A stretch of 64,000 nucleotides of DNA from a virus, in IMG/VR virus record IMGVR_UViG_3300044617_001255, positions 1 through 64,000 of that record; one strand, 5' to 3'. Within the stretch, counting starts at the first letter, position 1, and every line of letters begins with the position of its first letter. The translations under genes were made by a program, and so were the position numbers. The notes below the pieces were generated by a model, which was given only the letters and a program-made list of their open reading frames with translations, made no database searches and was not told the DNA's origin. Positions 10,831-32,991 of this stretch are shown here, one piece after another.

Positions 10831-11025
10831 TTATGCTGTAATATAAAATGTAGCGTTCTTGTATATGCGAATTTGATCTGATCTATAGTGTCTCACAATA
10901 CCAGTATCACAATGGACTACACACCATATATCGTTTTCAAATGTACCACCATCTCTTACATAAAGAGCATATCCTTCTTTGTTTTCTTCAATAATTACAG
11001 GTATTGGATTTGAAAATTGCATCAT
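10831..11025 (-). CDS. Hypothetical small protein
   Basis: 64 residues (NPIPVIIEENKEGYALYVRD, then GGTFENDIWCVVHCDTG), strand-rich. It starts at the TAATG overlap with purA. It looks like a short conserved protein of T4-like marine phages, but no function is known to me. Confidence 0.65.
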   Translation of the reverse strand: MMQFSNPIPVIIEENKEGYALYVRDGGTFENDIWCVVHCDTGIVRHYRSDQIRIYKNATFYITA

Positions 11026-12026
11026 TATATTTTCTCCGGATGTGATGAAAATAATACATCAGCATCATCCATATAATTTCGATTTTCATCCCAGATAGTT
11101 CTGCTGATGTAAGTCTTCATTTCATTAAACGAATCAAAAGTTTTCAATTCATCTTTATGATATAGTTTGAATACACCAATTTTTTGAAGTACATCACATT
11201 TATTGATAATAATACAAGTTGCACCAGAAAGATTAATAGATTTCATCAACATATCAAGATTTAGCCAATTTGCAAATCTTGCACGACCGGTTGTAGTACC
11301 ATATTCTCCACCTTCCTGGACTATACGATTCAAAGTTTCATCATTGCGAAGACTTTCTGGGAATAGAGGATCAACTCCGCTCTTAGTATCATAAATCTTG
11401 GCTACACCAATAATAGATGCAATATTTAGTGGAGAAAATCCAAGAGAACATGCTGCATATGGAAGAGTGTTACTGCTTGTTACATATGGATAATTTCCCC
11501 AATCGACATCAAGCCATACACTCTGTGCACCTTCACAAAGAACATTTCCCGATAGTTTCTCATCCCAAATGTACTGAGATTCAAGTTTATCTTTTGCTAA
11601 AATTCCTTTGCGTAACATCTTATCTGCATAACATGGAGCAATACCCTGTGAGGTAGTTCCTAGATTTTTAGATAAATGATTTACATCATATACAATATGT
11701 TCATTTGTGATTACATGTGTTCTTGGGGAGACTTTTACAAGAGAAGTATCAAATCCTTCTTGTTTGAGATATTCAAGTTCTCCATAAAATTTATCAATAT
11801 TAATAACACATCCAGGTCCAATGATAGATGGAACACCAGCAAAGACTCCACTAGGAATCATGTGTGTTTTATACTTTTTACCATTGAGATAAACGGTGTG
11901 TCCAGCATTCGGACCACCATTCCAACGGCAAACGAAATCATATTCATTCGCTATACCACCAGAAACTTTTCCTTTTCCTTCATCTCCCCAACACAAACCA
12001 CAAATAATATCAACAGATTCAACCAT
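11025..12026 (-). CDS. purA: Adenylosuccinate synthetase
   Basis: 333 residues from ATG 12026, chosen because AAAGGA lies 8 nt upstream; an upstream ATG at 12080 would overlap the previous gene. It forms adenylosuccinate from IMP, aspartate and GTP. Motifs: WGDEGKGK (Asp15), NGGPNAGHT (His43), HMIPSGV, CEGAQSVWLDVDWG, YPYVTSSN and GTTTGRARFANWL. It is shorter than typical bacterial PurA (about 430) and close to archaeal and phage forms. Phage PurZ, which makes the 2-aminoadenine precursor from dGMP, is related; PurZ is reported to lose the Asp of GDEGKGK, and that Asp is kept here, so PurA chemistry is favoured. Confidence 0.88.
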   Translation of the reverse strand: MVESVDIICGLCWGDEGKGKVSGGIANEYDFVCRWNGGPNAGHTVYLNGKKYKTHMIPSGVFAGVPSIIGPGCVINIDKFYGELEYLKQEGFDTSLVKVSPRTHVITNEHIVYDVNHLSKNLGTTSQGIAPCYADKMLRKGILAKDKLESQYIWDEKLSGNVLCEGAQSVWLDVDWGNYPYVTSSNTLPYAACSLGFSPLNIASIIGVAKIYDTKSGVDPLFPESLRNDETLNRIVQEGGEYGTTTGRARFANWLNLDMLMKSINLSGATCIIINKCDVLQKIGVFKLYHKDELKTFDSFNEMKTYISRTIWDENRNYMDDADVLFSSHPEKI

Positions 12027-12037
12027 TGTATAATCCT

Positions 12038-12826
12038 TTATATTGTAATTTTGTTCCACAAATTTTTCCAGTTTGTGCATTCTGCATCTATCTCTGGCGG
12101 TTGTATATAGGCAAGATGATACGCTAAAGATGGAATAGGATTGAATGCAATAATAGTTTCATTTTCCTTGACATTCAATCCTTTATACTTTAAATTTATA
12201 GTATTATCTTCACAAACATTTGGATATTCTAAAGCCATTCTTTCATACATTTCAAAATTATTTCTCAAAATAATAGAATGTGTGAAAAAACTTAAAGTTG
12301 TATACTTGACATGTCTCCAATATCTTTTGTTGACGTTAAATAAAACTGTTGGTTCTTCTCTATTGTTAATATAACGGTAAGGGCAATCAAAAGGAAAAAT
12401 CAATACATTATCCTTAAATCTTTCTGTGAAATAATGATATGCATTATACATTTCATCAATAGCATTTTTTTCATGAAGATAATCATCTTCAATCACATAA
12501 ATTAATTCATCTTTTTGAATTGCTAACTTAAATTGTTCGTGGGAAGAATGATTGAATCCTCTTTGTTTAAGATTTATAAATTTACATTTTACATTGAGTG
12601 ATTTCAAACATTTTTTCATTTCTTTTATAAAAGAAACATCAGAATGATCATCTAAAATGGTAAATGATATATCATGACAACTATTATTGATTGTAGTTAT
12701 CAACGAATTTAAACATTTAAGAATCATGATAGATCTATCACTACCACAAATTCTATTTGATTTATTGATGTTATTGTCTAATAGAGAATTAAGACAAGTT
12801 CTCAATATTACATGAATCTTTCCCAT
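12038..12826 (-). CDS. Glycosyltransferase family 2-like protein
   Basis: 262 residues. ISFTILDDHSD and LIYVIEDDYLHEKNAIDEM give the two acidic motifs of a GT-A (GT2) nucleotide-sugar transferase. Its ATG follows tRNA-Thr with no gap (12826 against 12829), so mRNA and tRNAs share a transcript. Confidence 0.75.
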   Translation of the reverse strand: MGKIHVILRTCLNSLLDNNINKSNRICGSDRSIMILKCLNSLITTINNSCHDISFTILDDHSDVSFIKEMKKCLKSLNVKCKFINLKQRGFNHSSHEQFKLAIQKDELIYVIEDDYLHEKNAIDEMYNAYHYFTERFKDNVLIFPFDCPYRYINNREEPTVLFNVNKRYWRHVKYTTLSFFTHSIILRNNFEMYERMALEYPNVCEDNTINLKYKGLNVKENETIIAFNPIPSLAYHLAYIQPPEIDAECTNWKNLWNKITI

Positions 12827-12828
12827 AA

Positions 12829-12900
12829 AGCCACCTAAAGGATTTGAACCTTCAACCTATCGCTTACAAAGCGATGGCTCTGCCGTTGAGCTAAGGTGGC
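12829..12900 (-). tRNA. tRNA-Thr (TGT)
   Basis: 72 nt. Acceptor GCCACCT/AGGTGGC plus T, anticodon stem ATCGC/GCGAT with loop TTTGTAA, T arm GAAGG-TTCAAAT-CCTTT. Confidence 0.92.
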
Positions 12901-12901
12901 A

Positions 12902-12974
12902 CTCTTTCGGCTGGGTTCGAACCAGCGACATTGGAGTTAACAGCTCCACGCTCTACCAACTGAGCTACGAAAGA
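12902..12974 (-). tRNA. tRNA-Asn (GTT)
   Basis: 73 nt. Acceptor TCTTTCG/CGAAAGA plus G, anticodon stem TGGAG/CTCCA with loop CTGTTAA, T arm GCTGG-TTCGAAC-CCAGC. Confidence 0.93.
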
Positions 12975-13252: not shown

Positions 13253-13280
13253 ATTATATAGCACTACTTGCTGTTGTCAA
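13253..13280 (-). promoter_or_regulatory. Consensus sigma70 promoter of the four-tRNA cluster
   Basis: Minus strand TTGACA (13280-13275), 16 bp, TATAAT (13258-13253). The -35 overlaps the last codons of guaC. It would drive the pseudoknot leader, tRNA-Lys/Gln/Asn/Thr, the GT2 gene and purA. Confidence 0.9.
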
Positions 13281-14362
13281 GTACCAATCGTATAAGGTTC
13301 AAAAGTTTCATTTAACTGACGGTTTACACGAATAAACGTAGTACAACGGGGAAGATCTCTAAGTCTCTCTGCACCTGTGTAGGTGCAAGCAGAAGAAATA
13401 CCACCCAAGATGTGCTTGATAGTCTTTTCAATTGGACCGCTATATGGGACGTAAATTACTCGTCCTTCAGATGAACGATAATCTGCGACACCACCAGCAT
13501 ATTTGTTCATTGCTTCTGAAGAAGACATTCCATAAAACTTCTTGCTTTTGATATTACCAGCATCGTCATATTGAATTTCTCCGCCTGCTTCGTCAGAGCC
13601 AGCGAACATTCCACCAATCATTACAAAATCTGTTCCAGCACCATATGCCTTTGCAACATCTCCGGGTGAAGTACATCCACCATCAGAAAGAACATATGCA
13701 TCCATACCATGCGCAGCATCGGCACATTCTAGAATGGTTGAGAGTTGTGGATAACCAACTCCCGCTACCTTACGTGTCATACAGGCTGAACCTGGTCCGA
13801 TTCCAATCTTTACAATATTTGCACCTGCAATGATAAGAGCCTCAGTCATTTCTCTAGTAACAACATTACCAGCAATTATAATCTTATTTTTAAAGATCTT
13901 TCTGACTGTTGAGACATAATCAACAAACTTTTCCGTATAACCGTTTGCTACATCAATGCAGATGAAATTTACATTTTGACAATGATCCAGAATCTTGGTA
14001 GCCTTTTCGATTTCATTATAAGTTGATTCTGAAGAGGATCCCATACCCATGGTATATACAAGATTTCCAGAGCAATTTGTTTGCATTAGAAGATGATTGT
14101 AATTTTGTACCCACTCATCATAAGAATAATACTTGTGAATCGCTGTCAACAATCCATATTTACAAGCCTTTTCTGCAACTGTAAACGTTCCAGTAGTATC
14201 CATATTTGATACTACAATTGGAACACCAGTCCATTTTAGATCTGGATTCTTGAAACTAAAAGTTCGTTCAAGTTCGACCTCTCTACGAGAACTCAAATCA
14301 CTTCTCTTTGGACGAATAAGAACATCACAAAAATCAAGTTTCACACCATCTTCAATTCTCAT
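13277..14362 (-). CDS. guaC: GMP reductase
   Basis: 361 residues, aligning from end to end by eye with E. coli GuaC (347): [62 protein letters not shown] (catalytic Cys194), [25 protein letters not shown] and TTFIRVN. It converts GMP to IMP with NADPH, releasing ammonia. No CBS domains, as expected for GuaC rather than IMP dehydrogenase. With phage purA nearby the product IMP can go towards AMP. AAAGGA precedes the ATG. Confidence 0.95.
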
Positions 14363-22574: not shown

Positions 22575-22805
22575 TTAGGTCATTTTCAGAATCGACTCTT
22601 CCCGGTCGTAGTTCGCCGCCGTCACCTCGTCCTGAAGATTGTTCGCCTCGTCGCTGGTGAGGTAGCCGAAAGTACGTCCGCCCAGGATGAATCCGTTGGC
22701 GAATGAAGTGGCAACCTTCAGAGTGTGCAGGTCCGGGGCACGACGTATCGCCGCAAGTGCGGCCATGAAACGGGGGAGAAAGTTGTTTGGAGTAGCAGTG
22801 GTCAT
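22575..22805 (-). CDS. Hypothetical protein, leaderless
   Basis: 76 residues, GC-rich codons. The ATG at 22805 lies 6 bp after TACAAT of a near-consensus promoter (22812-22839), which supports both the gene and its start. The body is Ala-rich and helical (FLPRFMAALAAIRRAP). No family recognised. Divergent from 22922-23329. Confidence 0.65.
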   Translation of the reverse strand: MTTATPNNFLPRFMAALAAIRRAPDLHTLKVATSFANGFILGGRTFGYLTSDEANNLQDEVTAANYDREESILKMT

Positions 22806-22839: not shown

Positions 22840-22887
22840 GGAGTAATTTCACATATTCGCCAGGGAGCCATTTTCGAATATTCCCTA

Positions 22888-22921: not shown

Positions 22922-23329
22922 ATGACCACCAACCTTCTCAACATCGGCAAGTCCCCTCTCGTAACCTTCGTCAAGGGCTTCTTTCGCAAGCCCACCAAGC
23001 CCGTGCAGCCCGTCGCCGTGAATGGCTCGACGGACGAGGACGCTACCCGTACCATCACGGTGCAGGTGTTGCGCCCCTGCACCGATCGCATTCTCTACGC
23101 CTTCTCTGTTCGCTGCCCGGTGTCCGCTGCCCCGGCTCGCATCGCGCAGCGTGTCGCCGTCCTGAAGAACATCCCCGGTAATCATCGGGTGTGGATGACG
23201 GATACCCGGTACGGTGTCGTGGACCCCGCCGCTACGGTCGGCGTGAACGGCATCTACGACTACCGCTACCGTGTGCTGCGTCAAGACAACACCGTTGGTG
23301 TCCGGTTGATCGATCCCCGCCGTAGGTGA
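22922..23329 (+). CDS. Hypothetical protein, leaderless
   Basis: 135 residues; a Lys/Pro-rich N-terminus (VKGFFRKPTKPVQPV) then a strand-rich domain (TRTITVQVLRPCTDRILYAF, GVNGIYDYRYRVLRQDNTVG). No family recognised. Starts at the A that the promoter would use as +1. Ends 18 bp before a strong terminator: a one-gene unit. Confidence 0.7.
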   Translation: MTTNLLNIGKSPLVTFVKGFFRKPTKPVQPVAVNGSTDEDATRTITVQVLRPCTDRILYAFSVRCPVSAAPARIAQRVAVLKNIPGNHRVWMTDTRYGVVDPAATVGVNGIYDYRYRVLRQDNTVGVRLIDPRRR

Positions 23330-23346
23330 GTGGTGGTGAGTCATGG

Positions 23347-23388
23347 ACCCCCGGACGGCACGTTGCCTCCGGGGGTTCTTTTATTTTT
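23347..23388 (+). terminator. Strong terminator
   Basis: ACCCCCGGA and TCCGGGGGT pair around a 12-nt loop, followed by TCTTTTATTTTT. Confidence 0.92.
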
Positions 23389-23399
23389 GAAATTCCCTA

Positions 23400-23427
23400 T
23401 TGACACGCTCTCGCCCCCGGTTACAAT
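23400..23427 (+). promoter_or_regulatory. Leaderless promoter
   Basis: TTGACA (23400-23405), 16 bp, TACAAT (23422-23427), 6 bp, ATG 23434. Confidence 0.88.
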
Positions 23428-23433
23428 ACGCGC

Positions 23434-23763
23434 ATGACAAACTCACCCGCCTACCGTCCCGCTAGCTCCTTCTCCGCCGAAGCCATTCTGGAGGCACAGA
23501 CCGATGCAGGTCTGCGCTGCATGTCTGACCTGATGATCGTCCTTTCGAAGACCGATCGCCACGTGCCCATGATCGCCATCGTCGCCTTCTCGCAACGCTA
23601 CCCGATTCAGTTCGAAACCTTCGAACTCATTCTCAACGCCCTTCTTTGCAACGATCTCGTCGGCTACCGCCTGAACCCCGAGAACATCGAAGACTCGTCC
23701 ATGTTCGGCACGGACAAACTCCGCATGGTCATGGGATGCAAGGGGGCCGGTGTCCCGGACTGA
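23434..23763 (+). CDS. Hypothetical protein, leaderless
   Basis: 109 residues, helical (AEAILEAQTDAGLRCMSDLM; FSQRYPIQFETFELILNALL). No family recognised. Single-gene unit bounded by its own promoter and terminator, followed by hairpin copy 1. Confidence 0.7.
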   Translation: MTNSPAYRPASSFSAEAILEAQTDAGLRCMSDLMIVLSKTDRHVPMIAIVAFSQRYPIQFETFELILNALLCNDLVGYRLNPENIEDSSMFGTDKLRMVMGCKGAGVPD

Positions 23764-23788
23764 ACCATAGTCGTGGTGATCGCCACGC

Positions 23789-23825
23789 ACCCCACCCAGC
23801 CATCCCCTGGGTGGGGTTCTCTATT
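23789..23825 (+). terminator. Terminator
   Basis: ACCCCACCCAG/CTGGGTGGGGT, 11 bp, followed by TCTCTATTTG. Confidence 0.85.
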
Positions 23826-23861
23826 TGTGTAATTCCTGGCAGAATTTCCTTGACACGAATT

Positions 23862-23922
23862 TGTTGACAGCGTCCACCACCAATACACACACATATCAGC
23901 CGGGTGGTGGTCGCTGTCAACA
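23862..23922. repeat. TGTTGACAGCG hairpin, copy 1
   Basis: Arms 23862-23881 and 23903-23922, loop 21 nt. The outer TGTTGACAGCG/CGCTGTCAACA is invariant in the family; the inner stem is CCACCACC/GGTGGTGG with one T-T mismatch. Pairing extends outward through GAATT/AATTC (23857-23927). Shortest loop of the five copies. Confidence 0.85.
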
Positions 23923-23999
23923 AATTCCAGGCCAAAGTCAAGCGGAAAGTTCACATTTAGTTGCAAATAGCGATTTCACATATTCCCGATGGTAACCCC

Positions 24000-24027
24000 T
24001 TGCATATGGCGATTCTGCCCTTATAAT
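24000..24027 (+). promoter_or_regulatory. Leaderless promoter
   Basis: TTGCAT (24000-24005), 16 bp, TATAAT (24022-24027), 6 bp, ATG 24034. TTTCACATATT lies just upstream (23974-23984). Confidence 0.85.
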
Positions 24028-24033
24028 TGGGGC

Positions 24034-24588
24034 ATGACCAACTCACCCGCTACAATCGATACGATCCTCCCCGCCCTTCGCACCCGTGTGGCGAATGCCA
24101 CCATGTCCGATATCATGCACGCCCACGCATGGTACGATGCGGCGAATTGCATCGCCCGCCGTATGGCGATTCTGAATCCCGCCCTTACCGTCGAGTCGGC
24201 GGCTACCATCGTCGCCGCATTCTCGCCCCGTGTGTCGTGGGCGCAGAATGTCCGCAAGGCGTTCGCCTTCGCCGTGGGATCCCCCGTCCGTGGGCTTTCC
24301 GCTCATACCCGTACTGCCGAGCGTGCGGTTACGATGGGCTTCGGTGCTATCGACCCCCGCACCGCCCCGAAGACATATAACTTCGCCCGCAACATTGCAG
24401 GCGACTACAACGCCGTCACGGTCGATATCTGGATGTGCCGTGCCGCCGAGATCGGACGGGACGCACCTACCATCCGCCAGTATCGCGCCATCGCTGACGC
24501 TGTGCGGACTCTCGCCGCCGAGTACAACATGACCCCCGCCGCAATGCAGGCGCTTATCTGGATTGTGGAACGGGGTCGCTCCGAGTGA
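24034..24588 (+). CDS. Conserved phage protein, possible HhH DNA-glycosylase-like fold; leaderless
   Basis: 184 residues from ATG 24034 (a start at 23989 would lie upstream of the promoter). WYDAANCIARRM, AATIVAAFSPRVSWAQNVRK, PKTYNFARNIAGDYNAVTVD and a last IRQYRAIADAVRTLAAEYNM match a widespread family of small phage proteins (AAVIAALSPRxxWxxN ... GDxxxVTVDxW). The helix-hairpin-like arrangement with a conserved Asp recalls DNA glycosylases, but no activity is known to me. Confidence 0.7.
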   Translation: MTNSPATIDTILPALRTRVANATMSDIMHAHAWYDAANCIARRMAILNPALTVESAATIVAAFSPRVSWAQNVRKAFAFAVGSPVRGLSAHTRTAERAVTMGFGAIDPRTAPKTYNFARNIAGDYNAVTVDIWMCRAAEIGRDAPTIRQYRAIADAVRTLAAEYNMTPAAMQALIWIVERGRSE

Positions 24589-24611
24589 CCGTAGCGGGTC
24601 CGAGAATAGCC

Positions 24612-24645
24612 CCTGGCCCAGCGTCGGGCCGGGGGTTATTCCATT
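24612..24645 (+). terminator. Terminator
   Basis: CCCCTGGCCC pairs with GGGCCGGGGG around a short loop, followed by TTATT. Confidence 0.75.
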
Positions 24646-24678
24646 CCTGGCGCAAATAGGGAATTTCGCAAATTAATA

Positions 24679-24756
24679 TGTTGACAGCGACCTAGACCGA
24701 CGACACGCACACCCTTTAAGTGTGCAGTGTAAGGAAGGTCTAGGTCGCTGTCAACA
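24679..24756. repeat. TGTTGACAGCG hairpin, copy 2
   Basis: Perfect 20-bp arms 24679-24698 and 24737-24756 with a 38-nt loop. Inner variable stem ACCTAGACC/GGTCTAGGT. The loop itself holds a second hairpin, GCACAC-CCTTTAA-GTGTGC (24707-24725). Confidence 0.92.
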
Positions 24757-24821
24757 ATAGGCCCTGGTTGTCAAGGGAATTCCAGGAAGATTGTCGAAAA
24801 AAGAAAATGTTTATTTGGCGA

Positions 24822-24849
24822 TTGACGAATGGCGAATGGAGATTATAAT
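24822..24849 (+). promoter_or_regulatory. Leaderless promoter
   Basis: TTGACG (24822-24827), 16 bp, TATAAT (24844-24849), 6 bp, ATG 24856. The spacer ends AATGGAGAT, as does that of the promoter at 26040-26067. Confidence 0.85.
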
Positions 24850-24855
24850 GGGGGC

Positions 24856-25155
24856 ATGAACACCACGACCCCTAGCGTCATCTGGCCTTGGAATCGCATC
24901 CTGCACACGGGCTACACGATCCTCACCACCGTCGAAGTCTGCACGATGCAGGGAAACCTGCTCCGCATCACCTACCGTCCGGAGACTGGCGATACCGTGG
25001 TGCGTGTGGTGAAGCCGGAGAATGTCTCCACCACGCAGGATCGGAACATGATCCTCCACGCCAGCCGTCATGAGAACGGCGAGACTGTGCAGCGTTCCTA
25101 CCGCCTTGACCGCATCGAGAACATTGACATTCTCCCCGATCTGCGGGAAATGTGA
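24856..25155 (+). CDS. Hypothetical protein, leaderless
   Basis: 99 residues from ATG 24856. Strand-rich: HTGYTILTTVEVCTMQGNLL, RITYRPETGDTVVRVVKPEN, then RSYRLDRIENIDILPDL, possibly a small beta-barrel or SH3-like fold. No family recognised. Directly followed by the promoter of the next gene. Confidence 0.7.
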   Translation: MNTTTPSVIWPWNRILHTGYTILTTVEVCTMQGNLLRITYRPETGDTVVRVVKPENVSTTQDRNMILHASRHENGETVQRSYRLDRIENIDILPDLREM

Positions 25156-25164
25156 TCTTTCCGA

Positions 25165-25193
25165 TTGACACCACCCCCAACCCCCGGTACAAT
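25165..25193 (+). promoter_or_regulatory. Leaderless promoter
   Basis: TTGACA (25165-25170), 17 bp, TACAAT (25188-25193), 6 bp, ATG 25200. Confidence 0.85.
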
Positions 25194-25199
25194 ACCGCC

Positions 25200-25607
25200 A
25201 TGAACCACAACAACGACAACATCGATGATTCGGACGACCTGTTCAACGACCTGCCCCCGGAGGTCGAGCAGATTCTCAACAGCATGACCGAGGCGGACAT
25301 GACCGCCTTGCGTGAGGTCACCGATGACCCCTTCGGACACCCCGACTCGCCCTTCCTGATCAACCTTGACCGCATCAGCGGCAAGGATGCAAAGGATGTC
25401 GCCCACGGCATCATCACGGCGCAGAACTGGATGCTGATGAACTTCACCTGCTTTGAGCAGGTGATGAAGGAGACAGAGAAGGATCTGCCCCCGTACCTCG
25501 CCCGTCGCGTCAACACGGCGATGCGAAAGATGTGCCACATCATCAAGGAGTCTGCGGAGGTCACGCTCGCCATCGGCTGCAAGGTCGGTGAGGCGTACAA
25601 AGCCTGA
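25200..25607 (+). CDS. Hypothetical acidic protein, leaderless
   Basis: 135 residues from ATG 25200. An acidic, Asp/Asn-rich N-terminus (NHNNDNIDDSDDLFNDLPPE) is followed by a helical domain (VEQILNSMTEADMTALREV; FTCFEQVMKETEKDLPPYLA). No family recognised. Acidic small proteins in phages can inhibit host DNA-binding enzymes, but nothing here proves that. Confidence 0.7.
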   Translation: MNHNNDNIDDSDDLFNDLPPEVEQILNSMTEADMTALREVTDDPFGHPDSPFLINLDRISGKDAKDVAHGIITAQNWMLMNFTCFEQVMKETEKDLPPYLARRVNTAMRKMCHIIKESAEVTLAIGCKVGEAYKA

Positions 25608-25618
25608 TCCCCCGGTTC

Positions 25619-25662
25619 AGCCGGGTGGGGTGAGCGAACGCACCTCCCCCACCCGGTTTTCC
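25619..25662 (+). terminator. Terminator
   Basis: CCGGGTGGGG and CCCCACCCGG pair across a 16-nt loop, then TTTTCCCC. A second hairpin, ACCCCAG...CTGGGGT, follows at 25676-25706. Confidence 0.88.
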
Positions 25663-25742
25663 CCGTCCCTGGCTAACCCCAGCAACCCGCAAGGGCCTGG
25701 GGTTTGTCAATAGGGGAATTTCAGAATTTCACATAAAAAATA

Positions 25743-25820
25743 TGTTGACAGCGAAACAAGCCCCGACGAAACGTAACGAAGTGAAGTTGAGGAGATTTAA
25801 GGCTTGTTTCGCTGTCAACA
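25743..25820. repeat. TGTTGACAGCG hairpin, copy 3
   Basis: Perfect 20-bp arms 25743-25762 and 25801-25820, 38-nt purine-rich loop. Inner variable stem AAACAAGCC/GGCTTGTTT. Lies between the ends of a plus-strand and a minus-strand gene. Confidence 0.92.
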
Positions 25821-25826
25821 AATCCC

Positions 25827-26012
25827 CTAGCCTATGTCTAGGGAATCTCTGCTGCCGTCCAGAGACTGGCGAATCTGGTTTTTCATCATCCGGCGAATCT
25901 GATCCGCCGAACGAATGCGGCCATCCCAGGTCTTCGACCGGAGACGGCGACCCTGACGGAGATCATCGACCAGGAACTTGTGAGGACGGTGCGTGTGGCG
26001 ATTCTGCTTCAT
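25827..26012 (-). CDS. Small basic protein, leaderless
   Basis: 61 residues from ATG 26012, the ATG that lies 6 bp after TATAAT; the frame opens 6 bp earlier but that ATG would be inside the promoter spacing. Basic: MKQNRHTHRPHKFLVDDLRQ then GRRLRSKTWDGRIRSADQIR. Possibly a nucleic-acid binder. Divergent from 26074. Confidence 0.65.
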   Translation of the reverse strand: MKQNRHTHRPHKFLVDDLRQGRRLRSKTWDGRIRSADQIRRMMKNQIRQSLDGSRDSLDIG

Positions 26013-26018
26013 GCACAT

Positions 26019-26046
26019 ATTATACGGCGAAATGAGTCCTTGACAA
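26019..26046 (-). promoter_or_regulatory. Leaderless promoter, overlapping a divergent one
   Basis: Minus strand TTGTCA (26046-26041), 16 bp, TATAAT (26024-26019), 6 bp, ATG 26012. Its -35 shares 5 bp with the -35 of the plus promoter, so the two cannot be occupied together. Confidence 0.8.
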
Positions 26047-26067
26047 GTGGCAAATGGAGATTATAAT
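26040..26067 (+). promoter_or_regulatory. Leaderless promoter
   Basis: TTGACA (26040-26045), 16 bp, TATAAT (26062-26067), 6 bp, ATG 26074. Confidence 0.88.
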
Positions 26068-26073
26068 GCAAAC

Positions 26074-26274
26074 ATGAGTTATCGAACACTAATCACCAAG
26101 GATGGGTCAGCAGCGGTCTGCGTCCCATATTACAACTTCCACCTATTCCGTCAGGATCTCAAGCATATGACTTGGGATGATCTGAAGGGAGAGATTCGTC
26201 AGAGGTTCCCGGATTTGACCCGAGATGACCGATCTGTGCTAATGCGTGTCATCCGCGAAAGGACCACACCATGA
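26074..26274 (+). CDS. Hypothetical protein, leaderless
   Basis: 66 residues from ATG 26074. LITKDGSAAVCVPYYNFHLF then a charged helical end (LKGEIRQRFPDLTRDDRSVL). No family recognised. ATGA overlap with the next gene. Confidence 0.65.
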   Translation: MSYRTLITKDGSAAVCVPYYNFHLFRQDLKHMTWDDLKGEIRQRFPDLTRDDRSVLMRVIRERTTP

Positions 26275-26558
26275 CTGACCACATCCCCAAGTTCGACCCC
26301 ATCCCCCGCCTTCAGCAGATTGCCGCAACCATTGAGGAGAGCGGTGCAGACATCTTTGATGCTCCCGCTACCGCTGTTCACTACATTGAATGCGCCATCA
26401 AGGAGATTGAACGGCTGCGGAAAGAGCGCAATGAGGCGAGGCGGCGAATCTGTGAAATGCTGCATGAGGAAGGCTATGGCCGTTCTCCCGAAGAGTGGGC
26501 AGAGCGCAAAGGTTGGGATTGCTTTTGGGAACCCTTCAATGAGGACACCGATGACTGA
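26271..26558 (+). CDS. Coiled-coil protein with C-terminal EARRxxC...GWDCF module
   Basis: 95 residues. The middle is helical (HYIECAIKEIERLRKERNEA) and runs into RRRICEML, then WAERKGWDCFWE. The same module, (R/N)EAR(R/Q)(E/R)(V/I)C followed some 20-30 residues later by GW(D/E)CF, closes the proteins at 34399-34704 and 35043-35594. Function of the module unknown; conserved Trp, Cys and Phe suggest a small folded unit or a docking site. Confidence 0.7.
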   Translation: MTDHIPKFDPIPRLQQIAATIEESGADIFDAPATAVHYIECAIKEIERLRKERNEARRRICEMLHEEGYGRSPEEWAERKGWDCFWEPFNEDTDD

Positions 26559-26601
26559 AATGACTGTGATCAGCGAAGAGTTCCCGAATATCGACTTCTG
26601 A
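26551..26601 (+). CDS. Possible 16-residue coupled peptide
   Basis: An ATG overlapping the stop of the previous gene (ATGACTGA) opens a frame MTEMTVISEEFPNIDF followed by a stop. Too short to be sure; listed because the coupling and neat end before the next promoter are suggestive. Confidence 0.25.
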   Translation: MTEMTVISEEFPNIDF

Positions 26602-26604
26602 TGG

Positions 26605-26632
26605 TTGACATGGTGCATTAGTTTGGTAAAAT
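26605..26632 (+). promoter_or_regulatory. Leaderless promoter
   Basis: TTGACA (26605-26610), 16 bp, TAAAAT (26627-26632), 6 bp, ATG 26639. Confidence 0.85.
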
Positions 26633-26638
26633 GCACAT

Positions 26639-27088
26639 ATGCCAAACTGGTGCAACAACTTCCTCCGCATCGCAGTCCCCACCGACCCTGCGTTTCGTGC
26701 CTACTTCAGAGGCTTCTGCTCCGCAGACCACAAGGAGTCAGGACTGGTTCTTCCCTTCTCGTTTGAGAAGATCGTGCCGATGCCCGAGTCCGAGGCAAAC
26801 AACTGGTATGACTGGCGCATTCAGAACTGGGGGACCAAGTGGGATCTCGTTCCACCGGACTGCTACACTTGGTCAACCACCAAGTCGATCTGGTACAACT
26901 TCCAGACAGCATGGGGACCACCCATCGAAGTCATCAAGGTTCTGTCCAAGAACTTTCCAACGAACTTCATGCGGTTGGAGTTTGAGGAGAAGGGCCTGAA
27001 CATGAGCGGGAATCTCCGCTTTCAGGCGGGGTTCATGCTCTCGCACTCTACGGCGACATGTGGCGGGAAACCGATGCAACTTGTGTGA
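26639..27088 (+). CDS. YubB/Api92 ferredoxin-like domain protein (DUF1281-type), leaderless
   Basis: 149 residues. MPNWCNNFLRI at the start, FEKIVPMPES, WRIQNWGTKWD, FQTAWGPPIEVIKVLSKNFP and LEFEEKGLNMSGNLRF follow the pattern of the DUF1281/Api92-like family found on plasmids and phages. Function is not established. One-gene unit, followed by hairpin copy 4. Confidence 0.8.
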   Translation: MPNWCNNFLRIAVPTDPAFRAYFRGFCSADHKESGLVLPFSFEKIVPMPESEANNWYDWRIQNWGTKWDLVPPDCYTWSTTKSIWYNFQTAWGPPIEVIKVLSKNFPTNFMRLEFEEKGLNMSGNLRFQAGFMLSHSTATCGGKPMQLV

Positions 27089-27122
27089 AAATTTCAACAA
27101 ATCCCTGGACAACCGGGGAGAT

Positions 27123-27199
27123 TGTTGACAGCGAATCAATCCCTTTAAAGTCCCTCCCACCTCTTCGATGTGGTCGGGGGGATTGATTCGCTGTCAACA
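27123..27199. repeat. TGTTGACAGCG hairpin, copy 4
   Basis: Perfect 20-bp arms 27123-27142 and 27180-27199, loop 37 nt; pairing extends by one base pair on each side of both arms. Inner variable stem AATCAATCC/GGATTGATT. Confidence 0.92.
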
Positions 27200-27292
27200 A
27201 ATATTAATTTCACATATTGATTGGGGATTTCGCTTGACGCCCCAGGCCCGGAGCTGCAGTCCGCCAGGGCGTCTGGTGAATGGCGAATATAA

Positions 27293-27323
27293 AAAAAGAA
27301 TCCCCGGCGTGACCGGGGATTCG
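27293..27323 (-). terminator. Terminator
   Basis: GAATCCCCGG, 5-nt loop, CCGGGGATTC; on the minus strand followed by TTTTTTTAT. It ends the transcript of 27469-27726. Between it and that gene (27324-27468) no gene is supported; GGCGAAT occurs several times. Confidence 0.9.
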
Positions 27324-27468
27324 TGAGACGGTTTAGTAAGTCATCCGGGGAGCCGTAACTCGCAACCGGCGAATGGTGATTTAGGAAACTCACCGAACCT
27401 TCAATATAAACCCCTGTTCACGGATATCCTGTCGGTAGGGGCAACACCGTTTCGCGCACGGCGAATCG

Positions 27469-27726
27469 TCACGCCGGGACACGGCGGGGACGACCACGCT
27501 TCTCCTCACGGACGGTGAGGGTGGCGAGATTGGTTAGTTCGGGGAACTGGAACATACCCCGACCTGCCTTGCGGCTCGCATCGCTCGTCACCCACACGGG
27601 GATGACGCTGTAACCGAGCGCATCCTTTGCGGTGAGGAGTTCGGAACGGCTGAACACCGTCTTGCCCGGATGGGCGGTGGCGAGGTGCGAGAGGAACTGC
27701 ATCTGATTGGAAGTGTAAGTCTGCAT
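27469..27726 (-). CDS. Hypothetical basic protein
   Basis: 85 residues. MQTYTSNQMQFLSHLATAHP then TVFSRSELLTAKDALGYSVI and a basic end (EEKRGRPRRVPA) suggest a small winged-helix-like domain with an AT-hook-like RGRPRR. AAGGAG lies 8 nt before the ATG, so unlike its neighbours this gene has a leader and Shine-Dalgarno site. Confidence 0.7.
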   Translation of the reverse strand: MQTYTSNQMQFLSHLATAHPGKTVFSRSELLTAKDALGYSVIPVWVTSDASRKAGRGMFQFPELTNLATLTVREEKRGRPRRVPA

Positions 27727-27788
27727 TGTGCAGGCTCCTTTTTGTCTGAATGAATCTTGTCACCGGGAACGCCCCTGCGACACTATTC

Positions 27789-27815
27789 ATTATATCCATT
27801 TTTTCGTCAAGTCAA
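27789..27815 (-). promoter_or_regulatory. Sigma70-type promoter with normal leader
   Basis: Minus strand TTGACT, 15 bp, TATAAT at about 27794-27789, roughly 60 bp before the ATG at 27726. Confidence 0.6.
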
Positions 27816-27953
27816 GGGGATTTCTTCGATTTTCGAATACCACAATTCTTCCTGAATTTGTGATATTTCCTCTTGACATTCCAGGCCCTCCAGGAGGAGT
27901 GGGTCACACAACTCAACCCACTCCTCCAACTCCAAGAGGTCATCGTTAGGCAT
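27807..27953 (-). CDS. Small acidic protein
   Basis: 48 residues from ATG 27953, which overlaps the stop of the MoxR-like gene. Very acidic and leucine-rich: MPNDDLLELEEWVELCDPLL then LEGLECQEEISQIQEELW. A perfect 12-bp inverted repeat, GGAGGAGTGGGT/ACCCACTCCTCC (27891-27925), lies inside it and may also act as a hairpin. Coding is plausible but not certain. Confidence 0.5.
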   Translation of the reverse strand: MPNDDLLELEEWVELCDPLLLEGLECQEEISQIQEELWYSKIEEIPLT

Positions 27954-29136
27954 TGAGTGCCGCCTCCGTGCTGACGCTCTCCGCCGGGACTTCCGGCTTC
28001 GACGCGATTGCCGATGCGTCGATCTTCGTGTAGAGGTTGACGAACGAATCGCGGCTGTCCGGGCTGAACCGACCAACGCAGTCGGTGACTGCCTTCATCC
28101 TGTCGCGGAAGATGCTGTAGTTCAGCACAATGTGCTCCAGTCGGCGGGTCGTGATGATGTCATCGACACCACCCTCCTTGAACGTCTTGCGGATGATCTC
28201 TGCCCACTTCACAAGGTTGTCGGCAAACTCATCGTCGCGGCATCCGTTGTCCTTCATAATGTTGAGGACGATGCGCTTCTCAACCGCCTTCGATGGGTAG
28301 TCCTGCTCGTACATGACATAGAACCGCTCAAGGAAGGCTTCGTTGAGAATGTTCGTGCCTGCGAACCGCTCGCTGCCCTCGCCTGCCTGTCCCTTTGTGT
28401 TGGCGGTGGCGAACACGTTGAACCCCGGCGCAGGCATGACGTACTTGTTGATCTTCTTCAGGAAGATGCCCTTGCCCTCAAGCACGGGCTGAAGGCACAT
28501 GATCTTGTGCGAGCCGAGGTCAACCTCGTCAAGCAGCAGAATCGCGCCACGCTTCATGGCAGTAATGACTGCGCCATCCTGCCACACGGTCGAACCATCG
28601 ACCAGTCGGAACCCGCCAAGCAGGTCATCCTCATCGGTCTGTGCGGTGATGTTGACACGGACGTACTCCCGGTTCAACTTGGAGCAGACCTGCTCCACCA
28701 TCGTCGTCTTGCCGTTGCCCGACAAACCCGTGATGTAGACGGGGTAGAACCGCTTGGACTCGATGATCTTGCTGATATCGCTGAAGTGTCCGTAGGGGAC
28801 GTAGTGCGACAACTTCGCCGGGACGAGGTTGTCGGTTGCGGTGGTGCTGACGGACGGCTGATAGTTGAGAACTGACATTGGAGTTTCCTCTTGTGTTGGA
28901 AGTGTGAGAATGGTGGAAGGCACAGATGGGACGATGGTAGCCGGGGCGGTGTTGGAGGTCAACTCCTGCACCTCGTACTTGCCACTAGCAAGACGGCGTG
29001 TAGGCACGTTGAGGATCCATGTAGGCATGGGAACCTTGTGCTTGTACACGACCGCCTTGATCTGTGAGCGGGTGAGAGGTGAGGTGTAGCCTTCTGCACG
29101 GCAGGCTTCGACAAACTTGGTCATGGAGTCGTTCAT
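27946..29136 (-). CDS. MoxR/CobS-like AAA+ ATPase
   Basis: 396 residues. Walker A GLSGNGKTT (137-145), Walker B ILLLDEVD (199-206), sensor-1 FNVFATANTKGQ, and the Arg-finger region FLERF. The DEDDLLGGFRLVDGSTVWQD segment and the whole layout match phage CobS-like/MoxR ATPases. Residues 1-110 are an extra linker with a helical N-terminal domain. Such ATPases remodel partner proteins together with VWA proteins, and the divergent neighbour at 29357 is one. The ATG lies 7 bp after the -10. Confidence 0.9.
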   Translation of the reverse strand: MNDSMTKFVEACRAEGYTSPLTRSQIKAVVYKHKVPMPTWILNVPTRRLASGKYEVQELTSNTAPATIVPSVPSTILTLPTQEETPMSVLNYQPSVSTTATDNLVPAKLSHYVPYGHFSDISKIIESKRFYPVYITGLSGNGKTTMVEQVCSKLNREYVRVNITAQTDEDDLLGGFRLVDGSTVWQDGAVITAMKRGAILLLDEVDLGSHKIMCLQPVLEGKGIFLKKINKYVMPAPGFNVFATANTKGQAGEGSERFAGTNILNEAFLERFYVMYEQDYPSKAVEKRIVLNIMKDNGCRDDEFADNLVKWAEIIRKTFKEGGVDDIITTRRLEHIVLNYSIFRDRMKAVTDCVGRFSPDSRDSFVNLYTKIDASAIASKPEVPAESVSTEAALNA

Positions 29137-29356
29137 GCGGTGCAGTATAAGGCATCCGGGGTGGGGTGCAATAGGTTTGTTGCAATAATGTCACATATTG
29201 CGCAGAATGGCCGAAACCTGGATTTTACAAAAGGCAGGGCTGGCCTGACATTTGAATAATTGCAAATCCCCCTGGTCGCAGCTCCTGGCACAACTATCTG
29301 CATCGAACTTCACAAATAGTGCTTGCAACCGAGGCAGGAGTCGGTATACTTGGGGC
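29137..29356. promoter_or_regulatory. Divergent promoter region of the MoxR and VWA genes
   Basis: Minus: TTGCAC (29171-29166), 16 bp, TATACT (29149-29144), 7 bp, ATG 29136. Plus: TTGCAA (29323-29328), 16 bp, TATACT (29345-29350), 6 bp, ATG 29357. Both -10 hexamers are TATACT and both -35s are TTGCA(A/C), unlike the other promoters here, so the two genes are probably co-regulated. TGTCACATATT and CTTCACAAATA motifs lie between them. Confidence 0.8.
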
Positions 29357-31633
29357 ATGACCAACCCAATCAATCCATCCAAGTCCTCGCTCGCTCGCCT
29401 GATGTCCACAGAGAACCTGAAGGTTGTCTACGACAACAAGGCGCATACCGCATCCTTCAATGTCGTTTCCCGTGAACTCCGGCTCCCCGTCTACAAGGAT
29501 TTCGTGGACGAGACTGTCGATATGTTCGTCGGGCATGAGGTAGGGCACGCTCTCTACACTCCCGGCACGGAGGAGGCATTCGTCGGTGCGCTCAACGCCA
29601 TCGACCCCAAGAACCATCCCTCCGCAAAGTCGTTCCTGAATGTCGTTGAGGACGTTCGCATCGACCGCCTCATCAAGAACAAGTACCCCGGCATTCGCCG
29701 CTGCTACACCGCAGCATCCGCAGACCTTGTGAAGCACGACCTGTTCGGTCTGCGTGAGCCGGGTGCGGAGCCAGTCGATCAGATGCCGATGATCGACCGC
29801 CTCAACCTCCACTTCAAGGCAGGCATCTACGGCACTCTGCCCGTGTTCCTCACGGAGCGTGAGCAGGCATTCGCTGATCGCATGGAGCGAGCAGAGACTT
29901 TCGATGAGGTTGTGCAGATCGCAAAGGATCTGTACGAGGCATCGTTCGATGACATTCAGAACTCGCCGGATCAGAAGGTTGCCGTGCCGCAGCAGGCAAA
30001 GCAGGGCGAGGAGGGCGAGGGCAAGCAGGGAAATCCCCTTGACACGGAGAACCGCAAGGTCGATGACTCCGCAGAGGGCAACGATGGCAAACTCGCAGCC
30101 AATCCACGAATCGACAACAGCCACAACCGCAGCCGTCCCCGTCCGTGCAGCACGCAGGAGAAGTACGAGCAGGCAAAGAGCCGCAAGATCGACTCGCAGA
30201 GCGACGAGTACGCCTACTACGAGATGGCGAAGCCGAACCTTGACGCAATCGTGATCGACTACCCCACCGTGCTTGCGGACCTTGATGCGAACCGCAACGA
30301 TCCGGCAAACCGCTGCGCGGAGTGTTGGGTCGGAGACTCGCTCTACGAGAAGTACCGGCAGACGAATCTCCCTGCCGTCCGCATCATGGCTCGCACCTTT
30401 GAGCGCAAGCAGTCAGCGGTTCTTGATGCTCGCACACTCATCAGCAAGACGGGAATCATCGACCCGAACTCGCTCCACTCGTACCGCTTCAACGATGACA
30501 TCTTCACCCGGAATCAGGAGCAGCCCAACGGCAAGAAGCACGGCATGGTGATCTATGTCGATTGGAGCAGCAGCATGGGAGGCACGATGCTCGCTACCGT
30601 GCAGCAGATCGTCGCACTCGCAGACTTCTGCGATATGGTGCGAATCCCCTACGAGGTGTATGCGTTCTCATCGGCTCTTGATGATCGCCAACTCAAGAAG
30701 GCAGGCATCAAGCGCAAGGATCGTTACGACACTCCCGCACAGATCTACGGTGCGTATTGGCATGGCTTCTCATCCACGCCGAATCAATGGGGCAGCGAGG
30801 ACATCGACCCGCAGGGCAGGCTCTACATGAGTCCGTTCCAACTGGTGAATCTGCTCTCGTCCAAGATGAGCAAGACGGAGCGAGTGTCGATGCAGAAGCA
30901 TTTGCTCGTCATGGGCGCATCGTTCGATGGCGCAATCATCAACGGCATTCGCTACTACTACCCCATCCCCTCGCTCTACAACTTGGGCAGCACTCCGCTT
31001 GATGAGGCGGTTGTGTGTGCCTGTGAGCAGGTTCCTGCGTTCATGCAGCAGCACGGCGTTCAGGTGATGAACACGGTTCTCATCACCGATGGCGGATCCG
31101 GTTCGCAGGTCGTGAAGGATGCGTACATCAACAACGTGCTGCGCTACAACGGCGAGGACATTCCGCTTCAGCCGTGCAACTCGTACAACTCGTTCACCAA
31201 CTCGCTGCTTGGCGTTCTCAAGCGCAAGACGGGGACGAACATCATCAACTTTGAACTGCTCATGGGTCGTGGACACGACCACCGCTTCTGGGGCATGGCT
31301 ACTCCGTGCTTCACCCGTCACAACCGGATGCGGCACGACAATCGGGTTCACATGAAGCGCAACGTGACGGATGAGCAGAGAATCGCAGATCAGATGAAGA
31401 AGCATTACGAGGACAAGAACTACGCCATCCGTGAGAACTACGGGAACATCGACGCATTCGTGATGATCCCCGGCAAGACCGGACTGGTTGAGGCGCAGTC
31501 GTTCGACTCGCTCGTTGAGGGTGCTACGACGATCACCAAGATTCGCTCTGCGTTCGTCAAGACCTCATCGAATGCCGTCAACACTCGCTTCATGCTGAAT
31601 CAGATGGGCGAGGTGTTCGCCAGTCAACTCTGA
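29357..31633 (+). CDS. VWA-domain protein with HExxH motif (CobT-like)
   Basis: 758 residues from ATG 29357. N-terminal part: VGHEVGHALYTPG holds HExxH (His60, Glu61, His64), followed by NVVEDVRIDRLIKNKYPG, a likely third metal ligand. Residues about 215-290 are acidic and disordered. The VWA domain begins near 396; VDWSSSMGG (Asp402) is the DxSxS metal site. Phage CobT-like proteins pair with CobS/MoxR ATPases. The reaction may be chaperone-like or proteolytic; cobalt insertion into cobalamin is less likely. Leaderless. Confidence 0.88.
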   Translation: MTNPINPSKSSLARLMSTENLKVVYDNKAHTASFNVVSRELRLPVYKDFVDETVDMFVGHEVGHALYTPGTEEAFVGALNAIDPKNHPSAKSFLNVVEDVRIDRLIKNKYPGIRRCYTAASADLVKHDLFGLREPGAEPVDQMPMIDRLNLHFKAGIYGTLPVFLTEREQAFADRMERAETFDEVVQIAKDLYEASFDDIQNSPDQKVAVPQQAKQGEEGEGKQGNPLDTENRKVDDSAEGNDGKLAANPRIDNSHNRSRPRPCSTQEKYEQAKSRKIDSQSDEYAYYEMAKPNLDAIVIDYPTVLADLDANRNDPANRCAECWVGDSLYEKYRQTNLPAVRIMARTFERKQSAVLDARTLISKTGIIDPNSLHSYRFNDDIFTRNQEQPNGKKHGMVIYVDWSSSMGGTMLATVQQIVALADFCDMVRIPYEVYAFSSALDDRQLKKAGIKRKDRYDTPAQIYGAYWHGFSSTPNQWGSEDIDPQGRLYMSPFQLVNLLSSKMSKTERVSMQKHLLVMGASFDGAIINGIRYYYPIPSLYNLGSTPLDEAVVCACEQVPAFMQQHGVQVMNTVLITDGGSGSQVVKDAYINNVLRYNGEDIPLQPCNSYNSFTNSLLGVLKRKTGTNIINFELLMGRGHDHRFWGMATPCFTRHNRMRHDNRVHMKRNVTDEQRIADQMKKHYEDKNYAIRENYGNIDAFVMIPGKTGLVEAQSFDSLVEGATTITKIRSAFVKTSSNAVNTRFMLNQMGEVFASQL

Positions 31634-32232
31634 AAGACTGGCTCAAGCACTCGTCGCACAATCGTTGGTATGGTCAGGTGAGCCCTTCTCCGAAAGGAGG
31701 AGGGCATCACTTTTTGTATGTACTTGTTGCTGAAAGGATCCCTGCGCCAATTCCAAGTAGGGAATTCGCGCATCATGTGGTAGAGATATATGTACGTATT
31801 CGCCGCACGAATATATGTCTTTACTCCGATGCGCAGCCTGTGGCGTAGTGCTAGCTCGATGGCCTTGCGTTCAGTCTGTCGCTCATATGTGCGAACACGG
31901 CGGAATGCCCAATCCAACTGACGACGAGAGTACCTGCGGGCACCAGTCGTGTAGTCAGCAACAATATGTGTAGCACGGTCGTCCTGGCGTTCGTCTCTGG
32001 CTGACTGCTCCAGCCACAGAACGAAATGCGAATACTCATGAAGCAGAGTCCATAGCCAACGACCATTCCCCCTGGCTACACGGATCTCTCTCCTGGCTGC
32101 GTTGAAGTAGCCAGCGATGCGAATACCTTCGCAATTCACATTTAATCCTTTTCCAAATATAAGTTTCCATCCGTACTCTGCCAGATGGGAACGAACATGC
32201 TGGACGAACTTAAATGTGGTATCTTGCATCAT
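31624..32232 (-). CDS. HExxH metallopeptidase-like basic protein
   Basis: 202 residues, Arg-rich. WTLLHEYSHFVLWLEQSARD holds HExxH; RREIRVARGNGRWLW just before it gives the strand-helix layout of SprT/WLM-like zinc peptidases. The third ligand is not clear. It runs convergent to the VWA gene and overlaps its end by 10 bp. The start MM... has no clear Shine-Dalgarno site. A second metalloprotease-like gene beside the MoxR/VWA pair. Confidence 0.7.
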   Translation of the reverse strand: MMQDTTFKFVQHVRSHLAEYGWKLIFGKGLNVNCEGIRIAGYFNAARREIRVARGNGRWLWTLLHEYSHFVLWLEQSARDERQDDRATHIVADYTTGARRYSRRQLDWAFRRVRTYERQTERKAIELALRHRLRIGVKTYIRAANTYIYLYHMMREFPTWNWRRDPFSNKYIQKVMPSSFRRRAHLTIPTIVRRVLEPVFQS

Positions 32233-32305
32233 ATCTATTTAGGTTATAAGGGACCGAAAGGGCCGAAAAGACCTGGCTGGTTTTCGATCTGGGAATTTCA
32301 CATAT

Positions 32306-32383
32306 TGTTGACAGCGATTTAACATATTAAGCGAAGACAAGCGAGAGCGAGTCGAGTGGGGATATGTTAAATCGCTGTCAACA
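32306..32383. repeat. TGTTGACAGCG hairpin, copy 5
   Basis: Perfect 20-bp arms 32306-32325 and 32364-32383; pairing continues for one more bp outside and two inside. Inner variable stem ATTTAACAT/ATGTTAAAT; loop 38 nt counted from the 20-bp arms. GGGAATTTCACATATT directly precedes it. Confidence 0.92.
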
Positions 32384-32430: not shown

Positions 32431-32459
32431 TTGACAGGTCCGATAAGTTACCGTACAAT
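32431..32459 (+). promoter_or_regulatory. Near-leaderless promoter
   Basis: TTGACA (32431-32436), 17 bp, TACAAT (32454-32459), 8 bp, ATG 32468. A TCCGATAA motif sits in the spacer and recurs around it. Confidence 0.8.
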
Positions 32460-32467
32460 GGGGGTTC

Positions 32468-32818
32468 ATGAGCAGTTACCGCCCATATTATCGACCGTTT
32501 CGAATGGTGAAATTATCGGACCTGACCGATAACCGATTTGAGAAATTTACAGTTATCGGAATAAGCGCGCTGCTGCTGATGCTCATGTGGGGATTCGTCT
32601 GGGTAATTTTCAAATTCACATATTCGAGCGGGGAAGACGACCAGACAATCCAGGCCCCACTGAACCAGCCAGAGAATCAGGATATATACAATTGGAGAAC
32701 TATATCATGCCCACCTACGAGTACAAGTGCTTCGCCTGTGAACACACATTCGAACAATTCCTACCATTATCCCAACGTCAAGCCCCGACCAAGGAGGCTT
32801 GCCCCCACTGTTCCTTAA
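32468..32818 (+). CDS. Small membrane protein overlapping the FmdB-like gene
   Basis: 116 residues. One transmembrane helix (FTVIGISALLLMLMWGFVWV at about 27-46) after a basic N-terminus, so the C-terminus probably lies outside the cytoplasm. From about residue 80 the frame overlaps the next gene by 112 bp and has low-complexity composition. Either a true overlap or a sequence/frame change near 32700. Function unknown. Confidence 0.6.
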   Translation: MSSYRPYYRPFRMVKLSDLTDNRFEKFTVIGISALLLMLMWGFVWVIFKFTYSSGEDDQTIQAPLNQPENQDIYNWRTISCPPTSTSASPVNTHSNNSYHYPNVKPRPRRLAPTVP

Positions 32819-32991
32819 AGAAAGTAAAACAAGTAGTACTCAGTGTACCAGGCATGGCTGTCGATACATCACATAGAATCGATGGTAAGGCTACGGGACA
32901 GTTTAGAGATATCATGCAGAAGGTATCTCAGTCTCCAGGTATCAAGGGCTCTAAGAGGGAGAGGGCTCTGAAGAACCGATACGGGCTGTAA
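32707..32991 (+). CDS. FmdB-type zinc-ribbon protein
   Basis: 94 residues from ATG 32707 (GGAG upstream). MPTYEYKCFACEHTFEQFLP and ACPHCSLKKVKQVVLSVPG are the FmdB/CxxC_CXXC_SSSS signature: YEYxCxxCxxxFE, then CPxC. The family binds zinc and is thought to regulate transcription. The C-terminal tail (GQFRDIMQKVSQSPGIKGSK) is basic. Confidence 0.85.
   Translation: MPTYEYKCFACEHTFEQFLPLSQRQAPTKEACPHCSLKKVKQVVLSVPGMAVDTSHRIDGKATGQFRDIMQKVSQSPGIKGSKRERALKNRYGL

Follow-up and report, generated by a model that had tools for sequence, protein, structure and literature searches.

Promoter-early stem-loops (PeSLs) of T4-like phages have been proposed to mediate module shuffling (summarized in PMC4503421). 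The attC sites of integrons are palindromes that fold as single strands; their base is conserved (the R boxes), their upper stem is conserved only in its pairing and their terminal structure varies. They lie beside cassette genes, and their definition includes an unpaired central spacer and extrahelical bases, two or three in number (PMC2727003). Template switching creates and maintains perfect stems and has been documented for RNA genes (PMC8794818). How do these systems compare with a family of five hairpins found in the DNA of a T4/cyanophage-like virus? The window analysed is a 64 kb stretch of the 78,966-base, incomplete record of an uncultivated virus (IMGVR_UViG_3300044617_001255), and the hairpins lie between its positions 23862 and 32383; the evidence comes from one metagenomic assembly for this phage and two for its relatives. 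The hairpins are a real, hitherto undescribed element, structurally conserved. The reading that we favour, with low confidence (0.38), is that this dispersed family acts at the DNA level, a protein reading the invariant base of the stem at the borders of exchangeable early-gene modules.

The outer arms, TGTTGACAGCG and CGCTGTCAACA, pair at 23862/23912, 24679/24746, 25743/25810, 27123/27189 and 32306/32373. All 10 are exact matches, as the preliminary description of this DNA had it when it reported five hairpins with an invariant outer 11 bp. Hairpin 1 (23862–23922) spans 61 bp; its invariant 11-bp base is followed by a T–T mismatch, an 8-bp upper stem and a 21-nt loop. Hairpins 2 (24679–24756) and 3 (25743–25820), each of 78 bp, have a perfect 20-bp stem and a 38-nt loop, that of hairpin 2 containing an inner stem of its own. 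Hairpin 4 (27123–27199, 77 bp) has a perfect 21–22-bp stem and a 37-nt loop, and hairpin 5 (32306–32383, 78 bp) a perfect 23-bp stem and a 38-nt loop. The near-constant length described earlier for four of the copies (77–78 bp) is thus correct, and the 20-bp stem described for the family applies to copies 2 and 3 but not to copies 4 and 5, where it reaches 21–23 bp. The inner 9 bp differ among the copies and still pair, again as first reported: 44 of the 45 positions are Watson–Crick, one is the T–T of copy 1, and none is G–U. Mutual similarity of the loop sequences (21, 38, 38, 37 and 38 nt) is not significant.

Might such structures be expected by chance? With at most one mismatch, the arm occurs 12 times in the window, against a mean of 0.72 in dinucleotide shuffles. 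Beyond the hairpins the arm recurs exactly only once, unpaired, at 14141 on the minus strand, within a coding gene; as a candidate RNA target it was rejected, being explained by the codons of a GLLTAIHK stretch that is conserved in IMPDH/GMP-reductase-type proteins such as the one encoded there. Ranked by length, the five copies come first among the perfect-stem hairpins of the window, the sixth having 14 bp and a loop of 6 nt. Forty regions of 11 kb, simulated with matching dinucleotide composition, likewise gave 14 bp as the longest comparable stem. Their RNA-fold z-scores run from −6.4 to −12.2, and folding is far better than in shuffles for both strands as RNA and for the plus strand as DNA. 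In a six-sequence alignment of the arms, 98% of the cells are paired; 11 of the 20 pairs differ at both partners and none at just one, a level of covariation approached by none of 500 shuffled or slid versions. G–U pairs occupy 0 of 45 inner-stem cells, compared with 6 of 62 in the acceptor stems of this phage's tRNAs (p ~0.01, a rough value since the cells are non-independent). The arm changes are covariation, without the G–U intermediates usual for RNA. Perfect pairing of this kind points to a DNA hairpin or cruciform, or to a structure needed on both strands, possibly kept perfect by template switching, in which one arm is copied onto the other.

Is the same structure found in related phages? 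The ancestry of the record is T4/cyanophage-like: it encodes, between hairpins 4 and 5, a CobS-like ATPase (27946–29136, minus strand) and a CobT-like protein (29360–31633, plus strand), and its nearest annotated phages are mostly cyanophages (Kyanoviridae), with a CobT identity of ~29%. Hairpin 5 adjoins an HExxH-type small peptidase-like gene (31624–32232, minus) and has an FmdB-type zinc-ribbon gene downstream (32707–32991, plus). The closest relative found, G029 (contig L119), has CobS at 58–60%, CobT at 33%, gene 27469 at 58% and FmdB at 48–49% identity; its peptidase, in the opposite orientation, matches that of the window at 31% over 80 residues (E 4e-6). L119 has a single long hairpin, GTGGACTGCGCTAATATAC...GTATATTAGCGCAGTCTAC, at 12846–12936, between the peptidase and FmdB-type genes, that is, in the gene-order slot of copy 5. 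A second contig, L217 (G041), has a matching hairpin in the same slot. What is new here is that, judged from sequence, a hairpin homologous to those of the window stands at the copy 5 slot in both.

Aligned from the base, the arms of the window, L119 and L217 share GTNGACWGCG/CGCWGTCNAC. One outer-arm pair has changed from A–T to T–A between the window and its relatives, a compensatory change. The fourth pair is T–A in the window, G–T in L119 and A–C in L217; most simply, these states would be two single changes from an ancestral G–C. The pairing kept through sequence change that was first described within the window thus extends to two related contigs, and homologues with compensatory change, whose lack had been named as grounds for giving the idea up, do exist. 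The L217 and L119 hairpins are identical at 85 of 85 positions, which is weak evidence of constraint because nearby runs of 67–101 are conserved alike. Hairpins of this form (stem of at least 16 bp, span 50–100) turned up as one other distinct case in ~2.1 Mb of other phage DNA fetched; since they are so rare, in our informal judgement a hairpin with a related base would be very unlikely to fall in the copy 5 slot by chance. Short inverted repeats, CACGGC...GCCGTG and TTTCGAGAC...GTCTCGAAG, lie directly 3′ of the G029 hairpin (L119 12932–13000), and in L217 11 bp of the former are missing.

The genes from 27469 to FmdB, including CobS, CobT and the peptidase, have homologues in relatives and are shared with G029; the small genes around copies 1–4 have no homologue in the loci of any relative fetched. 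For this reason copy 5 appears ancestral, older than the split from G029, and the extra copies appear to go with the accessory block. No such hairpin was seen at that place in L120–L122 and L146, which share CobT and FmdB, nor near the FmdB gene of L218 and L220, where a related gene stands without an adjoining GC-rich region. The first relatives, fetched via a glycosyltransferase, do not have the hairpin region in common.

Like PeSLs, the hairpins are intergenic stem-loops that a T4-like phage carries in its variable region, where they border small modules of accessory genes; the region is the plastic early region, among accessory genes. PeSLs, to go by the title of a 2014 paper, are reportedly promoter–terminator composites. 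The window hairpins differ in standing separate from promoter and terminator and in having a long stem, a large loop and an invariant base below a covarying upper stem; fusion with an early promoter or terminator is not found, and copies 4 and 5 are arranged differently.

With attC sites the hairpins share the conserved base, the pairing-only upper stem and the variable end. The R″ and R′ boxes of attC are ordered RYYYAAC...GTTRRRY; the hairpins end in TGTTGAC...GTCAACA, the opposite order. Copies 2–5, whose stems are uninterrupted, have neither extrahelical bases nor a central spacer, and no integrase was found in the incomplete record; the hairpins fall outside the definition of attC. Perfect stems, changes on both arms and the lack of G–U intermediates also recall quasipalindrome template-switch products (PMC8794818). 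Such switching accounts for the complementarity of the arms, but leaves unexplained why the base should be the same in all five copies and related in two further phages.

The features shared by the hairpins are an invariant base (GTNGACWGCG across the clade), an upper stem conserved only in its pairing and a loop free to vary in sequence (37–38 nt long in four copies), and the sites lie at gene-module borders in the early, GC-rich, variable region. If the hairpins act as DNA, how might they do so? The arms would fold as a cruciform, or else in the single-stranded DNA of intermediates in replication or recombination; a protein of the phage or its host would recognize the base of the stem; and the sites would serve, somewhat as PeSLs and attC sites do, as borders where accessory early-gene modules are exchanged, gained and lost. 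Template switching between the arms, selection on the folded form, or both, would keep the drifting upper stem complementary. Of these steps, we infer protein recognition, folding in vivo and module exchange. The further proposition, that this is a phage-borne integron- or PeSL-like cassette system and thus a new family of folded-DNA sites where early modules are swapped, we consider unlikely.

Several observations weigh against a site read as DNA. The incomplete 79-kb record gave no PF00589 match for a tyrosine recombinase and no Y1 transposase. No two genomes that differ in the presence of a hairpin-bounded module turned up, and an exchange event was not seen. Copies 3 and 4, like the G029 hairpin, come straight after stop codons, where an RNA 3′-end element would stand. 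A requirement for RNA hairpins on both strands would also leave the stems free of G–U pairs. The gain and loss of the many unknown early genes of T4-like phages is an open question, for which a border site kept by its structure would give a concrete handle. Moreover, with its invariant base and its covarying upper stem, the family offers a clean case in nature in which selection for RNA pairing, selection for DNA folding and template-switch copying might be told apart.

The last two of these objections lead to the principal alternative, a strand-symmetric RNA 3′-end element, in which the ~20–23-bp stem would be an exonuclease barrier or RNase III site between transcription units in both directions. 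RNase III favours a stem of about two helical turns, close to the length seen here, and both strands are very stable. Copy 3 has convergent genes on its two sides, one of them a putative minus-strand gene (25827–26018) whose stop codon is 7 bp away, and copy 4 begins 35 bp past the stop codon of gene 26639–27088; the G029 hairpin falls within the same 7–35 bp range. A need on both strands would exclude G–U. The other copies fit less well. Hairpin 1 is separated from gene 23434–23763 by a predicted intrinsic terminator (23789–23817, plus strand). Hairpin 2 follows gene 24034–24588 and a G+C-rich inverted repeat with a T-rich tail (24608–24640, plus), and hairpin 3 follows gene 25203–25607 and two such repeats (25610–25720, plus); the terminator scan lists only the first of these terminator-like repeats, the rest being read from the sequence. 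Copies 1–3 therefore stand behind predicted plus-strand terminators, and copy 5, with divergent genes to either side, is outside the predicted transcripts. Where the earlier description had four copies after a plus-strand one-gene unit, copies 1–3 do follow a gene and its predicted terminator; copy 5 does not. Blocking of an exonuclease or cleavage by RNase III needs no invariant 11-bp base, and the incomplete 79-kb record yielded no RNase III gene, although the host would have its own. We rank the DNA-level site above this RNA boundary element, which we regard as possible but doubtful.

Could the hairpins instead be small RNAs transcribed independently, bound by a protein at their constant base and directed to different targets by a variable upper part? 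The constant base, the variable upper stem and loop and the covariation would suit such molecules. The promoter scan found none upstream of any copy, however, Rfam gave no family at gathering score (weak microRNA-precursor matches only, far below the cut-off), and G–U pairs are lacking. Position behind predicted terminators, between divergent genes and without a promoter makes an independent small RNA unlikely and also speaks, with less force, against a 3′-end element. The structured RNA that the preliminary description had offered as one option is, in this independent form, the least probable of the readings considered here.

That the arms are not simple promoters, as also stated at the outset, agrees with our scan: a single arm match is promoter-like (copy 2, minus strand, 10/12), and its transcripts would start inside the hairpin. 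TTGACA is absent from the arms of the relatives, and since it is not conserved there it is not part of a promoter. The intrinsic-terminator scan called none of the five hairpins, whose loops are 21–38 nt, and a T run follows copy 3 only, on the minus strand. Near early promoters or hairpins there is an intergenic motif, TTTCACATATT, sometimes after GGGAATTTC, at 22847, 23974, 27208 and 32296 (plus) and 37955 (minus); it is possibly a regulator site. An inverted motif, CAGGTCCGATAA/TTATCGGACCTG, occurs near an early promoter at 32435–32524 of the window and also in L202, L203 and L205, and TTATCGGAC is present in G029 and G031 too.

A non-autonomous mobile element would have the arms as 11-bp terminal inverted repeats with TG...CA ends, moved in trans by a transposase. 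Such an element would explain the identical ends, the dispersed intergenic sites and the length of 77–78 bp in four copies. REP/PATE-type elements, related to IS200/IS605, are dispersed intergenic palindromes with a common stem base. In the window hairpins, by contrast, upper stems and loops are unrelated, yet the inner stems are complementary. The flanks show no consistent target duplication, the incomplete 79-kb record yielded no transposase or integrase of the tested families, Y1 included, and the exact arm search gave no host repeat family with the same arms. The non-coding mobile element first suggested is accordingly improbable.

What of a wider family? The pattern searches for homologues used a relaxed arm consensus. 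In IMG/VR, the exact 11-nt arm gave nothing, and a 9-nt arm gave 14 matches, none with a comparable covarying stem and forming no family. A 10-nt arm gave 11 scattered matches in GTDB genomes, again no family, and BLAST of two hairpins against GenBank phages returned nothing notable. One candidate, the L025 hairpin, contains the same 11-mer within 39-bp arms; as a single copy of different build it was judged a chance match.

The hairpins might also be a single-strand replication signal, such as primosome- or primase-loading hairpins or origin-linked sites, placed where gene orientation and GC skew switch. The cumulative GC-skew minimum does fall at ~24–30 kb, with leftward genes on the minus strand and rightward genes on the plus strand. 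Yet the skew tracks gene orientation, the intergenic copies are scattered across 8.5 kb, and in G029 the hairpin occurs just once. This proposal seems to us as improbable as the mobile element.

GC content rises from ~35% to 53–58% between 22 and 32 kb of the window. The small early genes of this region, on the plus strand from 22922 to 27088, start at 22922, 23434, 24034, 24856, 25203, 26074, 26271 and 26639, and most carry a sigma-70-like promoter of their own. The gene at 24034–24588 has its nearest annotated relatives in actinobacteriophages (~36–38% identity), some of them labelled glycosylase. Near-consensus sigma-70 promoters stop exactly 6 nt 5′ of the ATG in 10 of the 14 cases found, at 22805 (minus), 22922, 23434, 24856, 25200, 26012 (minus), 26074, 26639, 33769 and 4089 (minus). 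Because of this spacing, the mRNAs of many early genes are probably leaderless. Elsewhere in the window, a gene of the PurZ-like 2-amino-adenylosuccinate synthetase family (phrog_1211; 11025–12080, minus) lies close to the IMPDH/GMP-reductase-like gene (phrog_9582; 13277–14362, minus); the phage may modify its purines.

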